Shown here: piece by piece, positions 1 to 26,354 of the stretch
Numbering within the stretch: position 1 is the stretch's first letter
Layout of the letters: every line of letters starts with the position of its first letter
NCBI GenBank assembly: GCA_949283075.1
Contig: CASDRH010000011.1
Span: forward strand, 1 to 35,129
DNA length: 35,129 bases
Reading direction: 5' to 3'
Origin: an uncultured Pseudomonadota bacterium
GTDB taxonomy: Bacteria; Pseudomonadota; Alphaproteobacteria; Rs-D84; CASDRH01
Made by a program: the position numbers and the translations under genes
The notes under the pieces: model-generated
Told to the model about the DNA's origin: nothing
The model's database searches: none
Seen by the model: the letters and a program-made list of their open reading frames with translations, nothing else

Positions 1-3000
1 TCACAAATAATAGTGTTTTAGAAACTGGGGATTTAACAAACAGTGGAACTTTCACAAATAGTAATGGAAATATAGCTTCAACAGGTTCTCTAACAAATTC
101 AAACCAATTTACTATAACAGGAGGTTCAGCAAATTTTACTGATTCAATAACAAACGATAAAACAATAAATATAAGCGGTGGCTCTCTAAACGGCTCAAGT
201 TTAACTAATAGCGAAAATGGAACTGTAAGTGTATCAGGCACTGGCGCTGCAAATATATCTGGTAAAACAGATAATAAAGGAACAATAGCAGTTTCTGGAG
301 GAAGTTTTACAAGCTCAACAACAAACAATTCAGGAACAATAAATGTTTCTAGTGGTAAATTCAATGGAGGTTCTTTTACAAATGACACAGCAGGAAAAGT
401 TAACGTAGAAGGCGGAACTTTAACATCTGGAAGTTTTGAAAATAAAGGAAGTTTAACCATAGGTTCAAGCTCAGGTGGTAAAGTTGGAAACGTAACAATA
501 AGCGGAGATTTCAACAACACTGGAACATTTAAAAATAACGCAAATGGTAATTTAAGTATCAGTGGAAATTTAAATCACACAGGTACATCATTTACAAATA
601 ACGGAACAATTACAATGAATGGGAATGGTTCCATAATTGGTTGGGGAAATTCTCACGCTTCAGGTATAACAGGAACGTTAAACATAGAAGGGACAATAAA
701 TACAAAAGAAAATGCAAATAAAGATATTTATAACGATTTTTATATTGGTGAATCAGGAAAAGTAAATGTAAGTGGAACATTAAATACTGGAAACTTAGTA
801 AATTCTGGAACTTTATCAACAAATAAAAATGGAAACTTAAACATATCTGGTAATTTAACAAATAACGCAGGAAAAGCAGAAGAAGGAAAAGGTGTTATAA
901 ACATAGGGGGCAGCTCAACAGTAAACATAAAAAAAGCATGCGAAACCCCAGGACCGGATGATCTTTCTGCTGAAAATGGTTGTAAGTGCGAACCAGATCC
1001 AGCATCAGCAGGTGATGATGGAAAGCCAACAAAATGTAAAGTAGTAGATGGAAAAACTTCTATAATTTACAAAGCAGATACTGGGAATTTAGATAATTCT
1101 GGAACAATAAATGTTTCTGGAGGAAATTTAAATGTAAGCGAAGGTAATATCACAAATAATAAAGACGCAACATTAAATGTTACAGGTGGAACAGTCACAA
1201 CAATCGATTTAAAAAACACGGGAAATCTATCAGTTAGTGGAAACGGAAAAATTGATATAACTAACAGCCTTACAAACAACGACGGCGGTAAAATAGATAT
1301 GACAGGCGAACAAGTAAACATCAAAAAAGATTTTACTAACTATGGCACCGCAAATATAAATGGAGGAACTGTAACTGTAGAAGGAAAATTAACCAATAAC
1401 AAAGAATTCAATATAGGAACTGGTGGAACTGTAAATGTTACAGGGGAAATAACAAATGATAATTCTGGAAAATTTACAATTTCAGGAAACTTAACAGGGA
1501 CATCATTTAATAACAAGAATGGAACATTAACAATAAGTGGAGGAAATGCAAATCTTGACAGTTTAATAAACGGAGATGGTTCATCAAGCTCATCTTTAGT
1601 TATAGATAAAAGTGGAAGCATAACAATAAAGACAAATTTCACAAATAACACTGGTGCAACCACAACAATAACAAGCGGAAAATTAACAATACAGGAAGGT
1701 AATTTCATAAACAAAGGAACAACAACAATTGATAAAGATGGTGTTTTATCAATCAACGGAGGAAATTTAGACAACACAAGCGGAACATTAACAAACGCTG
1801 GAACAATCGATATGATTGGAGGAACAGAAGAAGGAGCACCTACAAAAATCATAAATTGGGGAACTAACAGCAATAAAGTATCAGGAAATTTAAATTTAAA
1901 TGGTGGTTATATACAGGTTGATAACGCATTCCATATTGACACAACAGGAGCGTTAGGTATTAACTCTGCATCATTAACAATAAAAGGAGATAGCTCTAAT
2001 GCAGGAACTATCAATTTAAACAGCGGAATATTAAAAGTAGAAGGAAACATTACCAATTCAGGAACATTAAATTTAACAGAAGGCTCTCTTGCAAACCTAA
2101 CAGGAGGATTGGTAAACAATGCAGACAGCACAATAAACATAACACAATCTGGAATAGAAATATCTAAGGGACTAGATAACTCTGGAAAAATAAATTTATC
2201 AGCAGGAACTATAACAGCAAAAGAAGATTCTACAATAAAAGCTGGTGGTTCATTAACACTAGATACATCATTTGCTATATTTGAAAAAGGATTAACAAAT
2301 ACAGCATCAACAATAGATTTATCTAACAAATCAGGATTACAAGTAGGAACAGATTTAACAAACTCTGGGAAAGGAAGTATAACTTTAAACACAGGTTCAT
2401 TAGCAGAAATAAAAGGCTCATTAAATAATACAGACGGAACAATAAAACTTGATGGCGAAAGCCAAATGACAGTAGGTAATTCTACAACAGCATCAAATTT
2501 AACAAATGGTGCTGGAGCATCAATATCAGTTAATAATAGTACTTTATTCGTTTATGGCTCAACAACTAATTCTGGAAACATAAGTCTATCAAATGGTAAA
2601 TTCCAAGTTGAAAAAGATTTCACAAATCAAGCAAGTAGCGAATTAAATTTAGCAGGAAGTTCAATAGGAGTTATAAAAGGCAACTTAACAAACCAATCAA
2701 ATATATCAATAGAAAAAGATTCTATATTAAGTTTATACGGAAATTTGAACAATGACGCTGGAACAATAAAAAATGTTGGAACTATAAATATGTTTGGTGG
2801 CACAAATTTTGCAGGTGCTACAACAATATCAGGATACGGAACAACAGATAAACCTATAACAGGAACATTAAACATAGTTCAAGATTTTGTAAAAGTAGAT
2901 TCTGATTTCACAATAGGAGAAGGAAGCTTAAACGTAGGTTATTGTGAAATGGTCAACGGACAATATGCCTGTGCAGAAAAGCCAGCAGACTTTACAATAA

Positions 3001-6000
3001 GCGGAAATTTAAACATAGATGACAAAGGTTCATCAACTATACACGCAAACGGTTCAGTACACATAATAGGTAGCATAAATGGAGGCGATAAATTAACAAA
3101 TAAAGGATATTTACAAATAACCTCATCAGAAAAAACTCCATCAACTCCAAGCACAATACATGGAATATTTTCAACAGACAAAACAGCAAATTTAGGAACA
3201 GTTGAAATTGGAGGAGCATCAAAAGATTCATCTCAAATCCCAAAAGGATTTATAGCAAAAACAGATTCAGATATTTATAATGGTGATGGAACTTTAAACA
3301 ATAGTATACTAAAAGCATTTGACCAATCATTAAAACCAAATCAAAAAGATGATTCAAAATATCAAGCAGTATTGTTAAACACATTTTTAAACCAAGTATA
3401 TACAAAATCAGAAACATCAAATAAATATGAATTTGATAAAATGAAAAACCAAACATTCATAATCGGATATAATTCTGAATTACAAATGAATGAAGGTAAA
3501 ACATTTTATAACAACGGAGTTTTAAAGTTTGATGGTAAAAATAATACTAATGATAGCAATATAAATATAGTAAATAATGGATTAACAGCATTTCACTACA
3601 CAGATGATACGGATGAAGCATATTTTAACAAAATTTTCATAAACATAGTAAAAAATACAAGTATGTTCGGTACATACAGCACAGTAATGTTTGAAAACGA
3701 ATATTTCCCAGATTTAACAAAAGCTGCTGGTGATACATCAGTAATAAACGTATTTGATTTAAACAAATCAGAAGAAGATCTAACAGCAACACTAAACGGA
3801 AATTTAATATTTACAAGAGGTTCATTCAACTTACAAAACAAAAAAATTAATTCAGTAAAACCAGGAACAATTGTAGCTGACTCAAATATAATGATTGGAG
3901 AAGCTGCAATGTTATTCTTCGACAACATAAATTTTATTGGAGGAGAAAACAAAGTCCTATATAACAAAGGACACTTGGTATTCTCAAAAACAGCAGGTGC
4001 TCAAAATACAGTAAAAGAAGTTGATATGAGCAATCCTAAATTTAACTTTGTAAATGACGGAGATATAACAGTCGATGCAAGATTAAATTGGGTACAAGAT
4101 ATAATGACAATAGGGTCATCAACATTCACAGGAAAACCAAACAAAGACATAATTGATGATTGGACTTGTGAAGGAGATTTCGAAACATGTAAAGAAAAAG
4201 CTAAAAAAGAATTAGGGATAGAATTAACTCCAGAAAACTCTGTAACTGTATCATCTGTTGGAGAAACAAACGGAACAAGAACATACACAAAATTAACATC
4301 CGAAATGCATTTAAAAGACGGTTCTCAAATAGCATTTGTAGGTTCAGCGAAAGGATTAGGAAGAGACGGTTCAGTATTAAATAACGGAATATTAAGATTA
4401 GATACAGGATCAAGAATAGGATTTTCAGAAGCAGGTGCAGGAATCCACAACTATGGAAGAGTTGACATTGGTGAAATAAACAAAGGAACAGATGGCAATC
4501 CTCTTGGAGATGAATTTACAAACACAAAAATATATAACTTCAACCAAATAAATATTGGAAACATATACTGCACAACAGAAGATGTAAATCAACCTTGTAA
4601 CATAGATAAAAAAGGACAAGCTGTTGCAATTGAATTACATAAAGGTATAGTAAATATGCCATTATACGATAATGCAATTATGACAATAAAATCAGGAATA
4701 ACAGTAAAAGACCCATCAGATCCAACTGGTGCAAAAGATATTTTAGTTAAAAACGTTGTAAATAATAGCAGTATAAATTCAAATCCATTATCACTAAATC
4801 AGTTTGGAGAAAATAGAACTATTTTAGAAATTGAAAAAGATGCTCAATTTGTGACAAAATACGACATAGTATCAAACGTATTACAAAACCTAATCGGAGG
4901 AAGTTCAGTATCTTCATATACTCCAATGCAAAACGCAATTGGAAACGGAATTATATGGAATAAAAAAGAAGGAACTCTTACACTTGACGGAACATTGGTA
5001 AGAGAAGACGGAAAAACAAAAGGAATATATATATACGGATTAGCTGCTCAAAAAGAATATTCAAATGAAGGAAAAGTTGAAGTATCAGGAGTAGTTCACT
5101 TATCACCAGTACGCGAAGGATACAGATATACAGAAGGGTTTAGTCAAGATTTATGGAACCAAGGAGAAATAAAAATAGCTTCTGGTGGAGAATTGCACAT
5201 ATACGGAAATATATATAATAGATTCGGAACTGGAGAAGATGGTTCACAAATAGTTGAAGGAACAATCGATAACACAGGAAGTAAATTAGTATTACACGGA
5301 AAACAAGAACAAGAAAATGCAATCATAGTTTCAGGTTGGGCAGATAAAGCTGCAAATTCAAACAAAGGTCATTTAGTAATAGAAGACGGATGGGTAAAAA
5401 CAGAAAATGGAAACCTATTCTGGAATGACGCATCAGGAATAATAGAAATTGGTGAAAATGGTATATTACAAATAGACGGAATAGAAACAGGAAGCCAAAA
5501 CGGACAACTTATAAACAATGGAACATTAGCAGTAGTCGGAAAAGATAAATTTGCAAACGCAACAAATATAAACTGGGCAAATTCAACTGCTGATGCAAAC
5601 ACAGGAAGATTAACAATATATCAAGATATAAAAACACCAACACAAAATTCAATAGCAATAATAAGTAAAGAAAAAGGAAATGAATTTGTTAATGGAAAAT
5701 CTGATAACAATATACGTGCAGAATTGGGAACAATGGCAAACACTATATTGATAAATGAAAGAGATAAAATAACAAACTATGGAAAAATAAATGTAACAGC
5801 AAACAGCTTGTTCATAAGCACAGGAAAAATAGAAAACAAAGAAGGAACAAACAAACAATCAAATGGAACAACAGATAAAACAAACGGAAAATTAGTTGTT
5901 AATAACGACCTAACAGTAGACTCAAGCTTAAAAGGAATGGGTACTGAAGAATTATATAATAAATATAAAGATAAATATGGAACATATATATCAGAAATTG

Positions 6001-7964
6001 ATAATACCAACGGACATATCGTATTAAATGAAGAAGGAATATTAGATATAATAAATGTAAAAGGAATATTTGAAAGCCAAGATAAAGAAAACACAGGAAA
6101 ATTTGAAATAGCAAATAACATAGTAAAAACAGAAGGTAATTTTTACAACAATGGTGAATTAATATTAAATATGGATTCACAACTTCAAGTTGGCGGAGGA
6201 ACATTCCAACAAGGACAAGGAACAAATAGCAAAATAACAATATCATTCACAGGAATGAAAAGTGACGATTCAGCTTTAATAATAGCAGACAAAGCAACAG
6301 TTGATTTAAATACAAAATTAAACATAAGCACAAATAAATTAACATATTTCTTTGGAAATAAAGACGGATATAAAATCATAGATTCAAATAATTTAACAGG
6401 AACAATAAATGCAAATAATATATTAATAAACGAATTACCATCATGGATAGACTTCACAACAGAAGTTATAAATAACGACTTAATAATAAAATTCAAATTA
6501 AACGACCAAGCAACACAATTTGCACTTGGTAAAAACAGGAACCAAAAAGAAGTTGGAGCATTCTTATTCAAATCACTACAAGAAGGTTGGGTAAAGAATA
6601 TAAACAACGAAGAAAATGTATTAGTTGATTTCGTAGAAGTGCTTTTATTAAACAAAGCCGGAGAATCAGAATTGGTAAATGTATTAGACCAATTAACACT
6701 ACGCACAGCAGAAGCATCTGTATCAATGGCAAAAAAAGCAAGCGATGCATTCAACGCAACTGTTATAAAAAATATTGCTAAAAGCTCATCTGGCTTCAAT
6801 GTACAAAATTCATTAGGATTTATGAAAGCAAATGATTTAGATTACACTCCAATGACAGCAGAAGCTCAACTTGGATATATGATAAATCAAAGTGCAGTAA
6901 TCAGTAAAAATGAAAACGATAATGAAGCAATCGCAAGAAAGATTAAAAGAGTCCGTAAGAAAGCTCAAAAATCAAAAGCAAAAAGAAATAAATCTATAAA
7001 AGATAATGATATAGATGCAAAACAAATAGAAGAGGAACAAGAATACGCTTTAAAATTCCGTGAACCAGCAAAAGCATACAACAACGTTTGGGTTGACTTA
7101 ATATCAACAACTGTAAACAAAGACGCAACTGTAAGCTTTGATAAATTCTCTGTAAACACAAACGGATTTGTTGCTGGTATTGAAAGAAAACACGAAACAA
7201 AATTAAAGAATTTAGAAATTGCTAAATACTCATACGGAGCAGCATTCTCAACCAGCCAATCATTAACAGAAAACAAAGTTAACTCTGTTGAAGCATCATA
7301 TTACGACATAAATGCAACAAATGTACAAATGGCATTATACGGAACATTTGAATGGGGCAAATCAATGGTAACAGGTATATTATCATACGGCTCTACATCA
7401 TTTGACCAAGAAAGAAACATAATCGTTGATACAAACGGAGCACAATCAAAAGAAACAGCCACCGCAAACTATAAATCAACATTTATGTCAATCTATGGAG
7501 AATATAAAAACAGAGTATTCAATGATATATATATGAAAGGATTTGGAGAATTCGCATCAACAACTCAAGATGCCTTTGAAGAAAAATCAGCAGAAATTCC
7601 TGGCTTAGGAGTTACACAAACAAGCTATATAGATTTAAGAGTCGGATATGGTATTGAATACATAGAACCATTTATAACTCCAAACGAAAAGTATTTAATT
7701 ATGCCATCATTTGGACTATCATACATACACAACTTCTTTGCAGGCCCAGTTGAATTTGATACATACTTCACATCAATTGGTAAAGATAAGCTTTTCACAC
7801 AAATAAGCGAAAACAGAGATGCAAACATAATATCATTAGAAGCAGGAATATCAGTTGGAAGAATTGTTGGAAAGCCAATCGTAGGAAAGTTTAACTATAC
7901 ATATGATATAATGGATCACGGAACAGCCCATACAATATCATTGAAATTCTTAAAAACATTCTAA
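1..7964 (+). CDS. Giant autotransporter (type Va), 5'-truncated by the window edge
   Basis: The reading frame is already open at base 3 and has no stop before 7962-7964, so at least 2,653 codons are visible. The first ATG in the window (609-617 region, 615) is internal and not the real start. The passenger is a long Asn/Gly/Ser/Thr-rich array of degenerate units of about 20 residues, of the type 'LTNNGTINVSGG', as expected for a right-handed beta-helix. A Lys/Arg-rich linker lies near 6925-7010. From about 7078 the sequence becomes alternating, aromatic-rich strands and ends in Leu-Lys-Thr-Phe, matching an autotransporter beta-barrel of about 295 residues with the C-terminal Phe recognised by the BAM machinery. 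By family the passenger is exported through the barrel to the cell surface. The ligand is unknown. No catalytic motif was seen. Ten cysteines occur in four clusters, discussed in the findings. Signal peptide and promoter lie outside the window. Confidence 0.93.
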   Translation, partial: TNNSVLETGDLTNSGTFTNSNGNIASTGSLTNSNQFTITGGSANFTDSITNDKTINISGGSLNGSSLTNSENGTVSVSGTGAANISGKTDNKGTIAVSGGSFTSSTTNNSGTINVSSGKFNGGSFTNDTAGKVNVEGGTLTSGSFENKGSLTIGSSSGGKVGNVTISGDFNNTGTFKNNANGNLSISGNLNHTGTSFTNNGTITMNGNGSIIGWGNSHASGITGTLNIEGTINTKENANKDIYNDFYIGESGKVNVSGTLNTGNLVNSGTLSTNKNGNLNISGNLTNNAGKAEEGKGVINIGGSSTVNIKKACETPGPDDLSAENGCKCEPDPASAGDDGKPTKCKVVDGKTSIIYKADTGNLDNSGTINVSGGNLNVSEGNITNNKDATLNVTGGTVTTIDLKNTGNLSVSGNGKIDITNSLTNNDGGKIDMTGEQVNIKKDFTNYGTANINGGTVTVEGKLTNNKEFNIGTGGTVNVTGEITNDNSGKFTISGNLTGTSFNNKNGTLTISGGNANLDSLINGDGSSSSSLVIDKSGSITIKTNFTNNTGATTTITSGKLTIQEGNFINKGTTTIDKDGVLSINGGNLDNTSGTLTNAGTIDMIGGTEEGAPTKIINWGTNSNKVSGNLNLNGGYIQVDNAFHIDTTGALGINSASLTIKGDSSNAGTINLNSGILKVEGNITNSGTLNLTEGSLANLTGGLVNNADSTINITQSGIEISKGLDNSGKINLSAGTITAKEDSTIKAGGSLTLDTSFAIFEKGLTNTASTIDLSNKSGLQVGTDLTNSGKGSITLNTGSLAEIKGSLNNTDGTIKLDGESQMTVGNSTTASNLTNGAGASISVNNSTLFVYGSTTNSGNISLSNGKFQVEKDFTNQASSELNLAGSSIGVIKGNLTNQSNISIEKDSILSLYGNLNNDAGTIKNVGTINMFGGTNFAGATTISGYGTTDKPITGTLNIVQDFVKVDSDFTIGEGSLNVGYCEMVNGQYACAEKPADFTISGNLNIDDKGSSTIHANGSVHIIGSINGGDKLTNKGYLQITSSEKTPSTPSTIHGIFSTDKTANLGTVEIGGASKDSSQIPKGFIAKTDSDIYNGDGTLNNSILKAFDQSLKPNQKDDSKYQAVLLNTFLNQVYTKSETSNKYEFDKMKNQTFIIGYNSELQMNEGKTFYNNGVLKFDGKNNTNDSNINIVNNGLTAFHYTDDTDEAYFNKIFINIVKNTSMFGTYSTVMFENEYFPDLTKAAGDTSVINVFDLNKSEEDLTATLNGNLIFTRGSFNLQNKKINSVKPGTIVADSNIMIGEAAMLFFDNINFIGGENKVLYNKGHLVFSKTAGAQNTVKEVDMSNPKFNFVNDGDITVDARLNWVQDIMTIGSSTFTGKPNKDIIDDWTCEGDFETCKEKAKKELGIELTPENSVTVSSVGETNGTRTYTKLTSEMHLKDGSQIAFVGSAKGLGRDGSVLNNGILRLDTGSRIGFSEAGAGIHNYGRVDIGEINKGTDGNPLGDEFTNTKIYNFNQINIGNIYCTTEDVNQPCNIDKKGQAVAIELHKGIVNMPLYDNAIMTIKSGITVKDPSDPTGAKDILVKNVVNNSSINSNPLSLNQFGENRTILEIEKDAQFVTKYDIVSNVLQNLIGGSSVSSYTPMQNAIGNGIIWNKKEGTLTLDGTLVREDGKTKGIYIYGLAAQKEYSNEGKVEVSGVVHLSPVREGYRYTEGFSQDLWNQGEIKIASGGELHIYGNIYNRFGTGEDGSQIVEGTIDNTGSKLVLHGKQEQENAIIVSGWADKAANSNKGHLVIEDGWVKTENGNLFWNDASGIIEIGENGILQIDGIETGSQNGQLINNGTLAVVGKDKFANATNINWANSTADANTGRLTIYQDIKTPTQNSIAIISKEKGNEFVNGKSDNNIRAELGTMANTILINERDKITNYGKINVTANSLFISTGKIENKEGTNKQSNGTTDKTNGKLVVNNDLTVDSSLKGMGTEELYNKYKDKYGTYISEIDNTNGHIVLNEEGILDIINVKGIFESQDKENTGKFEIANNIVKTEGNFYNNGELILNMDSQLQVGGGTFQQGQGTNSKITISFTGMKSDDSALIIADKATVDLNTKLNISTNKLTYFFGNKDGYKIIDSNNLTGTINANNILINELPSWIDFTTEVINNDLIIKFKLNDQATQFALGKNRNQKEVGAFLFKSLQEGWVKNINNEENVLVDFVEVLLLNKAGESELVNVLDQLTLRTAEASVSMAKKASDAFNATVIKNIAKSSSGFNVQNSLGFMKANDLDYTPMTAEAQLGYMINQSAVISKNENDNEAIARKIKRVRKKAQKSKAKRNKSIKDNDIDAKQIEEEQEYALKFREPAKAYNNVWVDLISTTVNKDATVSFDKFSVNTNGFVAGIERKHETKLKNLEIAKYSYGAAFSTSQSLTENKVNSVEASYYDINATNVQMALYGTFEWGKSMVTGILSYGSTSFDQERNIIVDTNGAQSKETATANYKSTFMSIYGEYKNRVFNDIYMKGFGEFASTTQDAFEEKSAEIPGLGVTQTSYIDLRVGYGIEYIEPFITPNEKYLIMPSFGLSYIHNFFAGPVEFDTYFTSIGKDKLFTQISENRDANIISLEAGISVGRIVGKPIVGKFNYTYDIMDHGTAHTISLKFLKTF

Positions 7965-18161: not shown

Positions 18162-20417
18162 TTACTTTAACATCAAAGGAGCAATAACCAAAGCAATAAC
18201 AGATATCAGCTTTACAATGATATTAACAAATGGGCCAATAGCATCTTTAAAGTAATCACCAACTATATCACCAACTAAAATATTATCATTTAAATAATTA
18301 TCATTATCTTTTGATTTTTTATTATTCAAGCGACGTAAATATTCAGCTTTTTTTGCATTATCCCAAATTCCGCCAGTATTATACATAAAAAACGAAATAA
18401 TTGTTCCGAATATAAAACTGCTAATCATAACACCAGCAACAAATTCAACACCCATAATATAAACTAAAACAGGAATAAATATAATAAATAACAAAGGAAT
18501 AATAAAATATCTAAAAGAACGCAAAGTAGATTTTTTCATAAATCCTTTAATATCATAAACGCAAAATCCATAAACATTTTCACACACTAATTCTAATTTT
18601 TGCTTATATTCTTTTTTCTTCATAAAAAAGTTCTTAATCGGATTTTTACCCAACACAACTTTATCACGAACAATTTCACAAATACCAAAACTTGACCTTT
18701 GCAACCAATCAAGCATCAAATCAGCCATTTTCTCAACAGACCTTACAATATAAGCAATCGCCATAATAACAATCAAAGCTCCAATAAATAAACCAATTAA
18801 AGTATTAATATTTATAACATCAATAAAAACTCTGCTAATTGCAAAAAATTCAACCTGTTGTTTATATGCAGCAAACAAAGCTAAAGAAGTAAGAATAGAT
18901 GCAGAAATAGCAATAGCTTTTGTCATAACCGCACTAGTATTACCAAGTATATCTAAATTTGCAGTAATTTTGTTAACACTTTCTTTTTGTAAAGACATAA
19001 TAGAAATGCTATGAGCATTATCAGAAACAGGTCCACCAGAAGAAATAGTTAAAACAAAAGCAAAAGTTGAAATCAATCCCAATGCAGCCAAAGAAATACC
19101 ATACAAACCAGCAAACTTAAAAGATATAAACATTGTAGATATTAATAATATCACAGGAATAATAATTGAATAAAAGCCACTTGAAATACCAGCAATAATA
19201 TTACCAGCAGGAGTAGTTTTAGAATGACTTAAAATATGTCTAATAGAAACTCCATTCGTAAATATATCTGTTAATTTTGAAATTAAAAAGCCAACCAAAG
19301 CACCTGACAAAACAGGAATAAATAATTTCAAAGGATACATAAAATATATCACAGCAAAAACAATCAAGCAAAATATTACAGAAGTAAATAAAGATAAAAT
19401 ATCCAAAGTTTTTTTAGGATTACTTTTAGGAACAAACTTAAAAGCAAATATACCAATCAAAGAAGATAACAAACCAATGGCAGATATAATCACTGGCAAA
19501 AATATTAAATAATCACGTGTAATATCAACAGAAATATATCTTGATATATCAACAACAGTAATAGTTGAAGCAATAATAATAGAAGAAACAACAGCAGAAA
19601 TATTTGCTTCTAAAATATCCATACCCAAACCAGCAATATTATTAATACAATCCCCAATATTATCAGCAATATAAGATAAACTTAAATTATCAGATTTATC
19701 TTTAATATAAGTATTTTCAGACTTTATATTGCTTTTATTATTACAATTTTTACTGCATTTATCAACCAAACTTTCTTGTAATAAATAAGAAGAAATATCA
19801 GCACTTTTTGCATACATTCCACCAACAGTTCTAACAAATAAAGTCGTCAACGCAACTCCAAGAGCAAAAGCAATAATGCTATTCATAATATCAAGATTAT
19901 CACCAATACGATACATAATTAAAGATATAACAATTAAAGACAAAGAAGAAAAAGCTAAACCAGAAATAGATCCACTCATAAAAGAAATTGAAAAAGCAGA
20001 ACTTTCATCAGTTTTTGCTCCGATAACAACTCTACCCTCACCTTTACCAACAGATTTAACCCCTATAATAATAGATACATAAGAAACGATTATACCTCCA
20101 ATAAAAGAAGCTAAATTAACCAAACCAAAAACTTTAAAAATGACAAAGCCAGCTAATATAGATACGACAAGAAATATTCTATTAAAATAATTTAAAAAAA
20201 CATTTATCCCACAGCGAATTGCAAAAGATAAAGCTTCAATTTTTTCATCAGCAATTTTTTTAAAACGCAAATTCAAATAAAGCAAACAAACTAAAAAGAA
20301 AACTACACAACCAAAAACAAAAGACAAAGCATAAATATTTTTATCAAATAATGCAGTTATAAAATTATTGAAAATTTCTTTACATTGAACAAATAAATCA
20401 TTATTAAAAAAAGACAT
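18162..20417 (-). CDS. Divergent membrane pyrophosphatase (HppA) homologue with altered active site
   Basis: 751 residues with many hydrophobic segments across the length, in the order expected for ion-pumping membrane pyrophosphatases (mPPases). Retained: Arg196 ('FVRTVGGMYAK'), Asp207, Asp252, Asp256, Asp267, 'GGPVSDNA', 'LDILGNT', 'WDNAKK', and near the C-terminus Asp717, Asp721, Lys724, Asp725 and Lys736 ('VGDIVGDYFKDAIGP'). By alignment with the plant Vigna radiata enzyme, Arg196/Asp267/Lys736 correspond to the ion gate R242/D294/K742. Altered: the DX7KXE motif (D253...K261, E263) reads Asp207...Glu215, Leu217; D257 is Tyr211; D287, one of the two Asp that activate the attacking water, is Asn260; D500 and E514 also appear replaced. 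A 19-residue Asn/Lys/Cys-rich insertion lies at about 220-245. It follows the S41 protease by 8 bases. Whether it hydrolyses pyrophosphate is doubtful. Confidence 0.85.
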   Translation of the reverse strand: MSFFNNDLFVQCKEIFNNFITALFDKNIYALSFVFGCVVFFLVCLLYLNLRFKKIADEKIEALSFAIRCGINVFLNYFNRIFLVVSILAGFVIFKVFGLVNLASFIGGIIVSYVSIIIGVKSVGKGEGRVVIGAKTDESSAFSISFMSGSISGLAFSSLSLIVISLIMYRIGDNLDIMNSIIAFALGVALTTLFVRTVGGMYAKSADISSYLLQESLVDKCSKNCNNKSNIKSENTYIKDKSDNLSLSYIADNIGDCINNIAGLGMDILEANISAVVSSIIIASTITVVDISRYISVDITRDYLIFLPVIISAIGLLSSLIGIFAFKFVPKSNPKKTLDILSLFTSVIFCLIVFAVIYFMYPLKLFIPVLSGALVGFLISKLTDIFTNGVSIRHILSHSKTTPAGNIIAGISSGFYSIIIPVILLISTMFISFKFAGLYGISLAALGLISTFAFVLTISSGGPVSDNAHSISIMSLQKESVNKITANLDILGNTSAVMTKAIAISASILTSLALFAAYKQQVEFFAISRVFIDVININTLIGLFIGALIVIMAIAYIVRSVEKMADLMLDWLQRSSFGICEIVRDKVVLGKNPIKNFFMKKKEYKQKLELVCENVYGFCVYDIKGFMKKSTLRSFRYFIIPLLFIIFIPVLVYIMGVEFVAGVMISSFIFGTIISFFMYNTGGIWDNAKKAEYLRRLNNKKSKDNDNYLNDNILVGDIVGDYFKDAIGPFVNIIVKLISVIALVIAPLMLK

Positions 20418-22339: not shown

Positions 22340-23236
22340 TTATTTAGCAGAATTTGAATGATTTACATTAAAAAATAACAACGCTGGCATTGCAACAAAA
22401 ATTGAAGAATAAGTACCAATAAGTATACCAAACAACATTGTTGCAGAAAAGCTACGTAACACAGGACCAGCAAACATAAACAAAGCAAAAACCGCTATAA
22501 AAGTAGTAAAGCTAGTCAAAGTAGTTCTAGTAAATGTTTCAGTAGTAGATATATTTATAATATCAAATAAACTTCTGCCTTTTAATTTTTTCAAATTTTC
22601 TCTAACTCTGTCATAAGATACAACAGTATCATTAATCGAATAACCAACAATAGTCAAAATCGCAGCAACAGTAGTTAAAGAAAACTCTATACGGAATAAA
22701 GATAAAAATCCAAACGTCAAAATAACGTCGTGCAACAAAGATAAAATAGCACCAATACCAAATCCAAAGTCATATCTAATCCAGATATACAAAGCAATTG
22801 CTAATAAAGAAAAGAAAACCGCATAAATACCCTTGCGGATAATTTCTCCTCCAACTTTTGGACCAACTAACTGAACATTTCTATATTCAACTTTATCTCC
22901 GCCAAGTATAGTCTTTATCTCATCAACAGTTTCTTGCTGTTTAGCTTCATCAGAAACCTGTAAACGAATAGAAATCTGAGTTCCATCACCAACAGACTGC
23001 AATTCAGGAGAAAATTTAGATAAATCTTTTCTGATTTTATCAAGATTAAAGACTTCATTTGATTTAACATCAAGAAGTATACCACCAGAAAAATCGATTC
23101 CCAAATTCAAGCCATTAAAAATCAAAATCATAATAGAAGCAAGAATCAAAGAAAAAGAAAAAACATAACCAAGTTTTCTAAACTTTAAAAAGTTAACAGT
23201 TCTTTTAAAAGAAATAAATCTAACAACATCAATCAT
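22340..23236 (-). CDS. secF: Protein translocase subunit SecF
   Basis: 298 residues, normal for a separate SecF. TM1 near 24-42 is followed by 'LGIDFSGGILLDV', the SecF signature, then a periplasmic domain and five C-terminal TM segments including 'YSINDTVVSYDRVRE' and 'TFTRTTLTSFTTFIAV', both strongly conserved. With SecD it uses the proton motive force to pull exported proteins through SecYEG. It lies 12 bases after secD, with AAAGGGG before its ATG at 23236. Confidence 0.98.
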   Translation of the reverse strand: MIDVVRFISFKRTVNFLKFRKLGYVFSFSLILASIMILIFNGLNLGIDFSGGILLDVKSNEVFNLDKIRKDLSKFSPELQSVGDGTQISIRLQVSDEAKQQETVDEIKTILGGDKVEYRNVQLVGPKVGGEIIRKGIYAVFFSLLAIALYIWIRYDFGFGIGAILSLLHDVILTFGFLSLFRIEFSLTTVAAILTIVGYSINDTVVSYDRVRENLKKLKGRSLFDIINISTTETFTRTTLTSFTTFIAVFALFMFAGPVLRSFSATMLFGILIGTYSSIFVAMPALLFFNVNHSNSAK

Positions 23237-23248
23237 AATAAAACCCCT

Positions 23249-24847
23249 TTAATTTTCATCAACTTTAAATGGTAATTTTGCACTTTTAAAATTTCTTGCC
23301 CAAAATTCCAAAAGCATTCTTAAAACAATAATATTACAATACATAGTAACCAACACACCAATTCCAAGAGTAATTGCAAATCCACGAACAGGACCAGAAC
23401 CGAATTGGAACATCAATAAAGAAGATACTAATGTAGTAATATTTGAATCCATAATTGTTGAAAATGCGTTATCAAAGCCTCTATCAATAACTTGTAAAAC
23501 AGGCATACCTTTTCTATATTCATCACGCATTCTTTCAAAGATGATAATAGCAGCATCAACAGCCATTCCGACAGTCAAAACCAAACCAGCAATTCCAGGT
23601 AAAGTTAAAACAAAGCCAAATAATCCCAAACACATCATAATAATCAACATATTCAAGATTAAAACAACATTTGCCAATATTCCAAATCTGCCATAAAAAA
23701 TTATCATAGATATTAAAACAAATATCAAGCCAAACACAGAGGCTTTTTTACCAGCCTCAATAGAATCAGAACCCAAACCAGCCCCGACAGATCTTTCTTC
23801 AACAACAACTAACGGAGCAGGCAAAGCACCAGACCTTAACATCAAAGCCAAATTTGCAACCTGTTCATAAGAGCTAAAAGAACCAGAAATAATACCTTGA
23901 CCATTTGGAATTTCTTCTTGAATAACAGGAGCAGATAAAACTTTACCGTCTAAAACAATAGCAAATCTTTTACCAACATTTTCACGAGTAAGCTTTGCAA
24001 ATTGTCTTGAACCAACATTATCAAAAACAGTAGAAACAGCAGGACGACCATAACTATCTTGCGTAGGTTTTGAATCTTTCAAATGCTCTCCTGAAATTTC
24101 AACACGTTTTAAAACAGGAGTCATATATCCATCATTTTCATCAAAAGAAGGCAATAATTCAGTTGTAACCGGCAGTTTATCATTAGCACTCATAACACTT
24201 TCATCAACCTTATGAAAAGTCATTTTTGCAGTTTTACCAATTAACTCTTTTATTCTTTCAGGATTATCAACCCCAGGCAATTGAACCATAATTCTGCTAT
24301 TGCCTTGTTTTTGAATAGAAACCTCAGCAGTTCCTAAACTATCAATTCTTCTACGAACAATTTCAATAGCCTTATCAACAGAATCAGAAAGAATATTTTG
24401 ATAAGCTTGTTCAGTATAATAAACCTTCAAATTTCCATTACCAGAATTATCAATAGCTACATCATTAGAAAAAATATCTCTTAATCTATTACTAAATTCT
24501 GAAATATTTTTGGTATCACGAATATTAACAGAAATCTGACCAACATCTTCTAATAATCTTAAATTAGAATATTGAATCAACTTTTGATTTTTATCTCTAT
24601 CACCACGCAATAAAGAACGAACTTCATCTTCAAGTAATGAAAGCTTATCTTTCTTAATCTCATTAACATCAACTTCTAATAAGATATAAGCTCCACCTTT
24701 TAAATCCAATCCTAATGGTATTAAATGATTCTTAAAAAAGTTCGGTAATTTATCTTTAAAAGAATTATTCAAAGCATTTGGAACAACCAAAGCAATTGAA
24801 AACAAAGTCAAAGCTAAAGCAGAAAAACCTTTAAAACTAAATCTCAT
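23249..24847 (-). CDS. secD: Protein translocase subunit SecD
   Basis: 532 residues. 'GLDLKGGAYILLEVD' follows TM1 (about 8-25). The periplasmic P1 region includes 'RRRIDSLGTAEVSIQKQG' and 'IMVQLPGVDNPERIKELIG', both diagnostic. The C-terminal TM block contains 'LTVGMAVDAAIIIFERMRDE' and 'DSNITTLVSSLLMFQFGSGPVRGFA' (in pieces), which carry the residues needed for proton-driven movement. The ATG lies one base past the stop of the flavin oxidoreductase gene upstream, so translation is probably coupled. The usual upstream partner yajC is absent from this locus. Confidence 0.98.
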   Translation of the reverse strand: MRFSFKGFSALALTLFSIALVVPNALNNSFKDKLPNFFKNHLIPLGLDLKGGAYILLEVDVNEIKKDKLSLLEDEVRSLLRGDRDKNQKLIQYSNLRLLEDVGQISVNIRDTKNISEFSNRLRDIFSNDVAIDNSGNGNLKVYYTEQAYQNILSDSVDKAIEIVRRRIDSLGTAEVSIQKQGNSRIMVQLPGVDNPERIKELIGKTAKMTFHKVDESVMSANDKLPVTTELLPSFDENDGYMTPVLKRVEISGEHLKDSKPTQDSYGRPAVSTVFDNVGSRQFAKLTRENVGKRFAIVLDGKVLSAPVIQEEIPNGQGIISGSFSSYEQVANLALMLRSGALPAPLVVVEERSVGAGLGSDSIEAGKKASVFGLIFVLISMIIFYGRFGILANVVLILNMLIIMMCLGLFGFVLTLPGIAGLVLTVGMAVDAAIIIFERMRDEYRKGMPVLQVIDRGFDNAFSTIMDSNITTLVSSLLMFQFGSGPVRGFAITLGIGVLVTMYCNIIVLRMLLEFWARNFKSAKLPFKVDEN

Positions 24848-24848
24848 A

Positions 24849-26354
24849 TTAATAACCTTTCTTTATCTGTTCAATCAATTGAGCAATTGTTGGTATAAAT
24901 TGTCCGCCTTTATAAAAATCATCAACAGCAAATCTATAACCAATATGCCCAGAAAATAATAAACTATTTTCAACATCAGAAGTTTTTGCAGCACGCTGTA
25001 AAGCTTTCTGAATACAAAAATTCATTGGATTTGGAGATATTTTCAAATTCTCTCTTTGGCTCCATCCAGAAAACAAGCAACCAGATAAACAACCAACACA
25101 ATCACGTCTATCTTGCATAATCATCTTATAAGTATTAGCATCAAAGAACTGCAAATACCCATCAGGAGTTTTTAAAATATGGTCAAATCCATCATAAATA
25201 AATTGCTTATATAATTCTTTATCATTTGGATTTATATAAACAATAATACCATAATTATTAGCTTTTTCTAACAACGCTTTTTTAACAGAATACTTACGCA
25301 AAGCTCTTTCAGCAATTTTTCCAATCATACCATTAAACAAAGCAACAGGATAAGTATACAAATCATCAAAATTTTCAGATTCGCTATATTTAATACGACG
25401 CTGTTTATTCATATAAAGACGTTGTAAAAACGAATTGTTAATAGCAGAAGAATAAAACCCTGTTGGAGAAAATTGTTGTAATCTAACATCACCTTTAGCA
25501 AGAGTAAAAAATTTATTCTTCATTTCCAATTTTATTGGAGATTCAACAGTGACCAGCGGACGAGTTCCAAATTGGAATAAAACAGGTCCCAATTCAGGAT
25601 TATCAATATAATCAGTCCATTCAGATAAATGCCAAACTCCTCCAGCAATGATAATAGGCTTGTCACTCAAACCGACTTCATTTAAAAACTGACGAATTTC
25701 TTTAACACGTTCATAAGGTTTTTCAGGCTGATTCGGATTATCAGAATTTGACAATCCATTATGCCCACCAGCCAACCAAGGGTCTTCATAAACAACAGCC
25801 CCCAAATATTCTGGATATTTAGAATAATCACGTTTCCAAAGCAATTTAAAAGCCCTTGCAGAAGAAACAATAGGATTATAATAAATACCACGTTTAGAAC
25901 AAATTTCAGCAAGTTTATAAGGCATTCCAGCACCACAAACGACACCATCAATCATACCTTTTGAGCCATCTAAAATACCTTCTAAAATAGGAATAGCCCC
26001 ACCCATTTCCCATAAAATATTTAAAAAGACTAAACCATTTTTATTATTATTTTCATCACGTCCACGAACTTCATTAGCTTTTTTAACCTGACAAATACCA
26101 CCTTCAATTGCTTGAACAATTAATTCATTCTGACGTTCCTGTCTAGTTTTTCCTTTATAAGAATAAGGAATAATGGAACCATCAGGACGATATTTATCAG
26201 CAAAAACTCCAGAAATAGTTCCTATACAACCTTCACGAGCAAAGCTACCAGAAGTCAAACCATTACTTAAAGCAATACCTTTACCCCCTTCAACAATTGG
26301 CCAAACTTCTTTTCCAGCAATTTTAACTTTATTCAATTTAAAATTCATATTCAA
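24849..26354 (-). CDS. NAD(P)H-dependent flavin oxidoreductase (nitronate monooxygenase family)
   Basis: 501 residues, with a TIM-barrel FMN-binding core of the nitronate monooxygenase / enoyl reductase (FabK, YrpB) superfamily. Seen: 'AREGCIGTISG' near the N-terminus, 'GGAIPILEGIL', 'VVCGAGMP', 'EDPWLAGGHNG' (the Gly-His-x-Gly active-site motif, about 190-200), 'PIIIAGGV' and 'VLFQFGTRPLVTVES' for phosphate binding. Residues beyond about 350 form an extension containing Cys419, Cys422, Cys426 and Cys447 ('DCVGCLSGC' ... 'NFC'), which could bind a metal or Fe-S cluster. The substrate is unknown. Start is uncertain: TTG at 26354 has GAAGGG 5 bases upstream, while ATG at 26348 has it 11 bases upstream. 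It lies 21 bases after smpB and one base before secD. Confidence 0.85.
   Translation of the reverse strand: MNMNFKLNKVKIAGKEVWPIVEGGKGIALSNGLTSGSFAREGCIGTISGVFADKYRPDGSIIPYSYKGKTRQERQNELIVQAIEGGICQVKKANEVRGRDENNNKNGLVFLNILWEMGGAIPILEGILDGSKGMIDGVVCGAGMPYKLAEICSKRGIYYNPIVSSARAFKLLWKRDYSKYPEYLGAVVYEDPWLAGGHNGLSNSDNPNQPEKPYERVKEIRQFLNEVGLSDKPIIIAGGVWHLSEWTDYIDNPELGPVLFQFGTRPLVTVESPIKLEMKNKFFTLAKGDVRLQQFSPTGFYSSAINNSFLQRLYMNKQRRIKYSESENFDDLYTYPVALFNGMIGKIAERALRKYSVKKALLEKANNYGIIVYINPNDKELYKQFIYDGFDHILKTPDGYLQFFDANTYKMIMQDRRDCVGCLSGCLFSGWSQRENLKISPNPMNFCIQKALQRAAKTSDVENSLLFSGHIGYRFAVDDFYKGGQFIPTIAQLIEQIKKGY

Follow-up and report, generated by a model that had tools for sequence, protein, structure and literature searches.

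P0001, a membrane pyrophosphatase (mPPase) homologue encoded in the window (by which we mean the whole 35,129-nucleotide stretch of DNA analysed here), is probably an mPPase of the K+-dependent type, now missing part of the hydrolytic centre and retained as a hydrolysis-deficient membrane pseudo-pump, half-way to the core-only proteins of a sister family. We further see about an even chance that the order Rs-D84, made up of gut alphaproteobacteria with reduced genomes, turned a primary pump stepwise into a selected non-enzymatic membrane protein. In such a scheme, the nucleophile and cage residues would have been lost first, a stage represented by the window protein, and the cytosolic helix extensions and transmembrane (TM) helices 1 and 2 would have gone next, as in the core-only family, while the remaining membrane core may provide a passive ion path or serve another new function.

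Table 1. Position of P0001, of its diagnostic residues and of the neighbouring genes in the window (Vr, V. radiata enzyme)
Feature	Position	Strand	Observation
P0001, mPPase-like protein, 751 aa, 16 predicted TM helices	18162..20417	-	PF03030 372.5 bits over residues 44-745
TM15-16 half of the site, residues 686-736	18210..18362	-	D15.61, K15.64, D16.31, D16.35, K16.38, D16.39, N16.46 and K16.50 kept
Ser459 replacing Vr Asp500 (D11.50, coupling funnel)	19041..19043	-	Asp in 30/30 canonical homologues
Asp267, equivalent to Vr Asp294 (D6.50), ion gate	19617..19619	-	Kept in P0001 and in all nine core-only derivatives
Asn260 replacing Vr Asp287 (D6.43)	19638..19640	-	Asp in 30/30 canonical homologues
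Rebuilt loop 5-6, residues 213-249	19671..19781	-	~17-aa insertion replacing K261-x-E263...IPEDDPRN; register ambiguous
Tyr211 replacing Vr Asp257 (D5.65, Mg/PPi cage)	19785..19787	-	Asp in 30/30 canonical homologues; ungapped from Asp207
S41 (C-terminal processing) peptidase, upstream of P0001	20426..22261	-	Peptidase_S41 119 bits; 8 bp gap to P0001
secF (22340-23236) and secD (23249-24847), upstream	22340..24847	-	Co-directional with P0001
Nitronate-monooxygenase-like (NMO) gene	24849..26354	-	PF03060 E 3.2e-6, 27.2 bits, just below the cut-off of 28

P0001 is a genuine full-length mPPase homologue. Its PF03030 score (cut-off 29.7 bits) covers nearly the whole model, and the AlphaFold model (pTM 0.75) has the 16-helix mPPase fold, with TM-scores of up to ~0.8 against mPPase structures and with mPPases as 36 of 36 PDB matches at E<=0.001, which bears out the collinearity with H+-PPases proposed in a first-pass annotation of the sequence; its reading frame of 751 uninterrupted codons was likewise confirmed, on the minus strand. 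Identity to the solved structures is 24-26%, and the narrower family models are not reached: the best NCBIfam equivalog model gives 397.9 bits where 926 are required and V_PPase gives 326 where 652 are required, so that for its best-scoring models P0001 attains some 40-50% of the NCBIfam equivalog threshold. A canonical hppA was sought in the window genome (928 kb, 96% complete) and not found, P0001 being the sole PF03030 match there. Like the K+-dependent enzymes of T. maritima (4AV3) and V. radiata (4A01), P0001 is collinear over its full length, shares the 16-helix fold, has Ala at 12.46 and keeps R5.50, D6.50, E6.53, K12.50, N16.46 and K16.50, but it differs from them in lacking D5.65, E5.76, D6.43, D11.50, E514, S5.43 and S6.54 and in carrying an insertion in loop 5-6. 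The best match to P0001 within the order, a canonical mPPase of genome G200 (L003), belongs to the same subfamily and keeps every catalytic residue, whereas P0001 does not; the two share 35% identity, against 44-65% between the G200 enzyme and its other canonical relatives. The possibility that the contig is contaminated or misassembled was considered and rejected, because the neighbours on either side are collinear with the same-family genome G012, which marks the contig as authentic. Codon recoding was rejected as well, since the frame of P0001 is free of internal stops and no single codon change is common to the residues lost.

The state of the hydrolytic centre was read from an alignment that set P0001 against the V. 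radiata enzyme and a panel of 30 canonical homologues, of which 29 are alphaproteobacterial and one comes from Competibacteraceae. The replacements of Asp257, Asp287 and Asp500 (Table 1) and that of Glu514, which is Ile473 in P0001 and Glu in 29 of the 30 homologues, had all been proposed in the first-pass annotation and hold against this set. Further losses came to light: Glu268 has become Lys239 and Arg272 has become Asp243, both at columns invariant among the 30 homologues, and Gly511 has become Ser470. Across the canonical alignment, 113 columns are invariant, and P0001 retains 64 of them and differs at 49. The acidic cage (D5.61, D5.65, E5.76, D5.77, D6.35, D6.39, D11.57, D15.61, D16.31 and D16.35 were tested) is incomplete, as D5.65 is Tyr211 and, according to the alignment, E5.76 is Lys239; the rest is kept, with D5.77 depending on gap placement. 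The Asp pair for the nucleophilic water is incomplete too, D16.39 being kept and D6.43 being Asn260. When the 16 residues listed as the hydrolytic centre in PMC6882861 (where N12.43 is printed as N12.53) are taken together, 12 are retained, with D5.65, E5.76 and D6.43 lost and D5.77 gap-dependent, and the PPi-holding residues K5.58, K15.64, K16.38 and N12.43 are all in place. The C-terminal set of Asp717, Asp721, Lys724 and Asp725 is present as described earlier, together with Asp686 and Lys689. The phrase "dismantled substrate site" is thus too strong for P0001 alone, given that 12 of the 16 residues survive.

Loop 5-6 and the ion gate each call for a qualified reading. The insertion breaks the spacing of the DX7KXE motif, and the particular substitutions first proposed, Lys to Glu215 and Glu to Leu217, are insecure and vary with gap placement: in two alignments Lys232 and Glu234 fall in the K261 and E263 columns, and in a third Glu215 lies opposite K261. 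An unbroken helix 176-225 in the AlphaFold model, in which pLDDT is low over 219-242, favours the Glu215/Leu217 register at low confidence. The gate, which had been described as intact, is only mostly so. Arg196, Asp267 and Lys736, the equivalents of R242, D294 and K742, are retained, and R5.50, D6.50, E6.53 (Glu270), N16.46 (Asn732) and K16.50 are all kept, but S5.43 and S/T6.54 have both been replaced by alanine (Ala189 and Ala271).

D6.43 is one of two aspartates that activate the nucleophilic water, and it is also the resting-state partner of K12.50 (PMC5150537; PMC10897367). Because D6.43 both activates the water and forms the D6.43-K12.50 latch, Asn260 should cripple hydrolysis and unlatch the gate, and we expect from the sequence little or no PPi hydrolysis by P0001. 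Some residual activity is possible, since the 12 surviving centre residues include all of the PPi-binding lysines. P0001 might even go on pumping ions at the expense of PPi with an altered site (fewer Mg sites and Asn260 at the nucleophile position), slowly but usefully, as R5.50, K12.50, E6.53 and K16.50 are kept alongside the lysines. Such an active pump would be valuable in the window genome, because subunits a and gamma of the F-ATP synthase were not found in it (96% complete), although they are present in same- and sister-family relatives, and another primary pump would hence be of use. We nevertheless regard a working pump as unlikely: the water-activating D6.43 is invariant in 30 of 30 canonical homologues, like D5.65, E5.76 and D11.50, the nearest derivatives (core-only) have none of the site, and removal of PPi does not require P0001, since a gene for a soluble PPase of family II (307 aa, with the motifs HMNPDTDS, DHH and SRKKQ) is present in the window genome, where no family I PPase was found.

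Soluble PPases of the two kinds are distributed by family within the order. Families f1, f2 and f6, in which all the mPPase-derived genes were found, have a family II (DHH-DHHA2) PPase and no listed family I enzyme; in families f3-f5, family I PPase is common and family II was not found in the genomes checked. In G200 (contig C5), the canonical hppA and a gene for a family II PPase are convergently oriented. As a separate observation, many genomes of f5/g10 carry short partial family I PPase-like matches (frames of ~115-300 aa, model positions ~31-115; for example G032:C1:35765-35998 and G060:C2:138415-138666), often beside a full PPase and sometimes as the sole match, and these possibly represent a second eroded PPase family.

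P0001 could alternatively act as a sensor of PPi or phosphate, or as a gated conduit, binding PPi through the TM15-16 half of the site and the lysines without hydrolysing it. It is the TM5-6/TM11 side that is affected, while D15.61, K15.64, D16.31, D16.35, K16.38, D16.39, N12.43 and K5.58 are kept, and in canonical mPPases binding alone shifts helix 12 and the gate (PMC5150537). However, the lid loop has been rebuilt in P0001, and in the core-only derivatives the binding half has gone as well, so that selection in the lineage has preserved something other than binding. Sensing is thus possible for P0001 and not for the core-only form, and we consider it an improbable account of the protein.

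It might also be argued that P0001 is a recently inactivated gene in the course of being lost, since most genomes of the order are without hppA (a canonical gene occurs only in G200 among 201) and the core-only gene is cleanly gone in genome G008. Yet the 751 codons run without stop or frameshift in an AT-rich genome, and their codon-position composition resembles that of the neighbouring genes. When the gene was mutated in 100 simulated neutral runs with its own third-position composition, stops appeared in 97 of 100 runs with 5% of residues changed and in all 100 at 10%, where not a single run stayed open. The open frame is incompatible with neutral drift, the earlier judgement against decay is upheld, and recent inactivation appears very unlikely.

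The preferred reading, that of a retained pseudo-pump, draws much of its support from the sister family. Within the 201 genomes of the order, PF03030 detects a single canonical enzyme (that of G200) as well as P0001, and it gives weak partial matches in the sister family, where a core-only protein of ~490 aa is present in nine of nine genomes examined from two genera (L029-L035, L019 and L020). The core-only proteins derive from an mPPase, and Pfam, profile-profile and blind fold comparisons agree on this. PF03030 gave 35.2 and 31.5 bits, above the cut-off, for two of three core-only proteins and 26.6, below it, for L032; the core-only profile aligns with the canonical one collinearly to the C-terminus (hhalign, E 1.6e-8) and with P0001 at E 9.3e-13; and AlphaFold, from core-only sequences alone, predicts 14 helices (pTM 0.76) for which mPPases are 21 of 21 PDB matches at E<=0.001. 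TM helices 3-16 are present, while TM1-2 are absent, as are the parts of TM5-6, 11-12 and 15-16 that extend into the cytosol, and with them the hydrolytic site. D6.50 is kept in nine of nine; eight of the proteins have a C-terminus, and all eight lack D16.39 and K16.50, the C-terminal register being uncertain in the most divergent. Core-only proteins are thus homologous to P0001 and share with it D6.50, an NMO neighbour and the same side of the tree, but differ in their length, in the missing site and in having an HD-domain gene and/or trmB downstream. In that tree, P0001 and the core-only proteins lie on one side of a branch and the canonical mPPases on the other (support 96/97), with long branches and skewed composition bearing on the grouping; a full-family tree, in which the branch leading to P0001 is very long, was left aside for placement.

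The dN/dS ratios of the two closest core-only pairs are 0.094 (L029/L030) and 0.17 (L032/L034), which identifies the core-only gene as a working gene under purifying selection. Because this derivative has lost the whole site and is still under such selection, a non-enzymatic fate is likely, and the suggestion that P0001 is a pseudo-enzyme gains from it, tempered by the 12 of 16 centre residues that P0001 keeps. We infer that it is most likely the membrane core that provides the selected function, through a passive ion path or a structural role; more tentatively, the retained core with D6.50 and N16.46 may let H+/Na+ through passively, or act as a structural membrane protein, rather than serve as a primary pump. 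No relative of P0001 at the same stage was found among the order's genomes searched, nor any close relative by peptide patterns in GTDB genome contigs, and the mPPase relatives recovered from IMG/VR were two genes, both canonical, which were used in the model alignment. Two candidates were set aside: a PF03030 match with three stops in G109, which is the start of a YajC-like gene and not an mPPase relic, and the Competibacteraceae match L036, which by alignment is a canonical mPPase and not a further eroded one.

P0001 resembles pseudoenzymes in general (PMC5106787) in that its fold is kept, catalytic residues are lost and the gene is maintained. No non-enzymatic or catalysis-free mPPase was found in the literature searched (mainly openly accessible papers). 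To our knowledge, the mPPases are regarded as primary pumps throughout, a uniform family, and any protein that matches PF03030 is annotated as such a pump. In a 2025 survey of reduced-genome gut bacteria, a pyrophosphate-energized pump is reported for "some" Rs-D84 genomes (PMC12306168), and the canonical enzyme was found here in one of 201 genomes of the order, which is a warning for annotation. Natural intermediates between pump and catalysis-free core would reveal what can be removed from the coupling machinery under continued selection, and the lineage would supply natural test proteins for ion conduction by the membrane core without hydrolysis.

The gene neighbourhood links the window locus with the core-only loci through NMO and trmB. 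On one strand, the window reads NMO-secD-secF-S41-P0001, and the same-family genome G012 reads NMO-x-secD-secF-S41-trmB without an mPPase gene, its other flank carrying HIT, HTH and rph genes as in the window; trmB was not found in the window genome (96% complete). In the sister family, the NMO family also flanks the core-only gene in L029 and L031-L033, and four genus-g3 loci show NMO (on the opposite strand), the core-only gene, an HD-domain gene and trmB, while in G009 the core-only gene lies directly before trmB. In the empty site of G008 (L104, G008:C65, 5806-5866), 60 bp separate the NMO gene from the HD gene and the core-only gene is missing, although the locus is conserved in other respects. 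The first-pass annotation had also raised the adjacent S41 protease as a functional partner of P0001, and the two genes do lie on the same strand with the short gap given in Table 1. S41, however, follows secF in G012, G001, G006 and G008 without an adjoining mPPase-like gene, and the core-only genes are at a different locus, which leaves the partnership unsupported and, in our view, hardly credible. At the start of the window, positions 3-7964 hold an open reading frame of 2653 aa, open at the contig end, with a repetitive 'TNSGTFTNSN...' sequence that is adhesin- or autotransporter-like.
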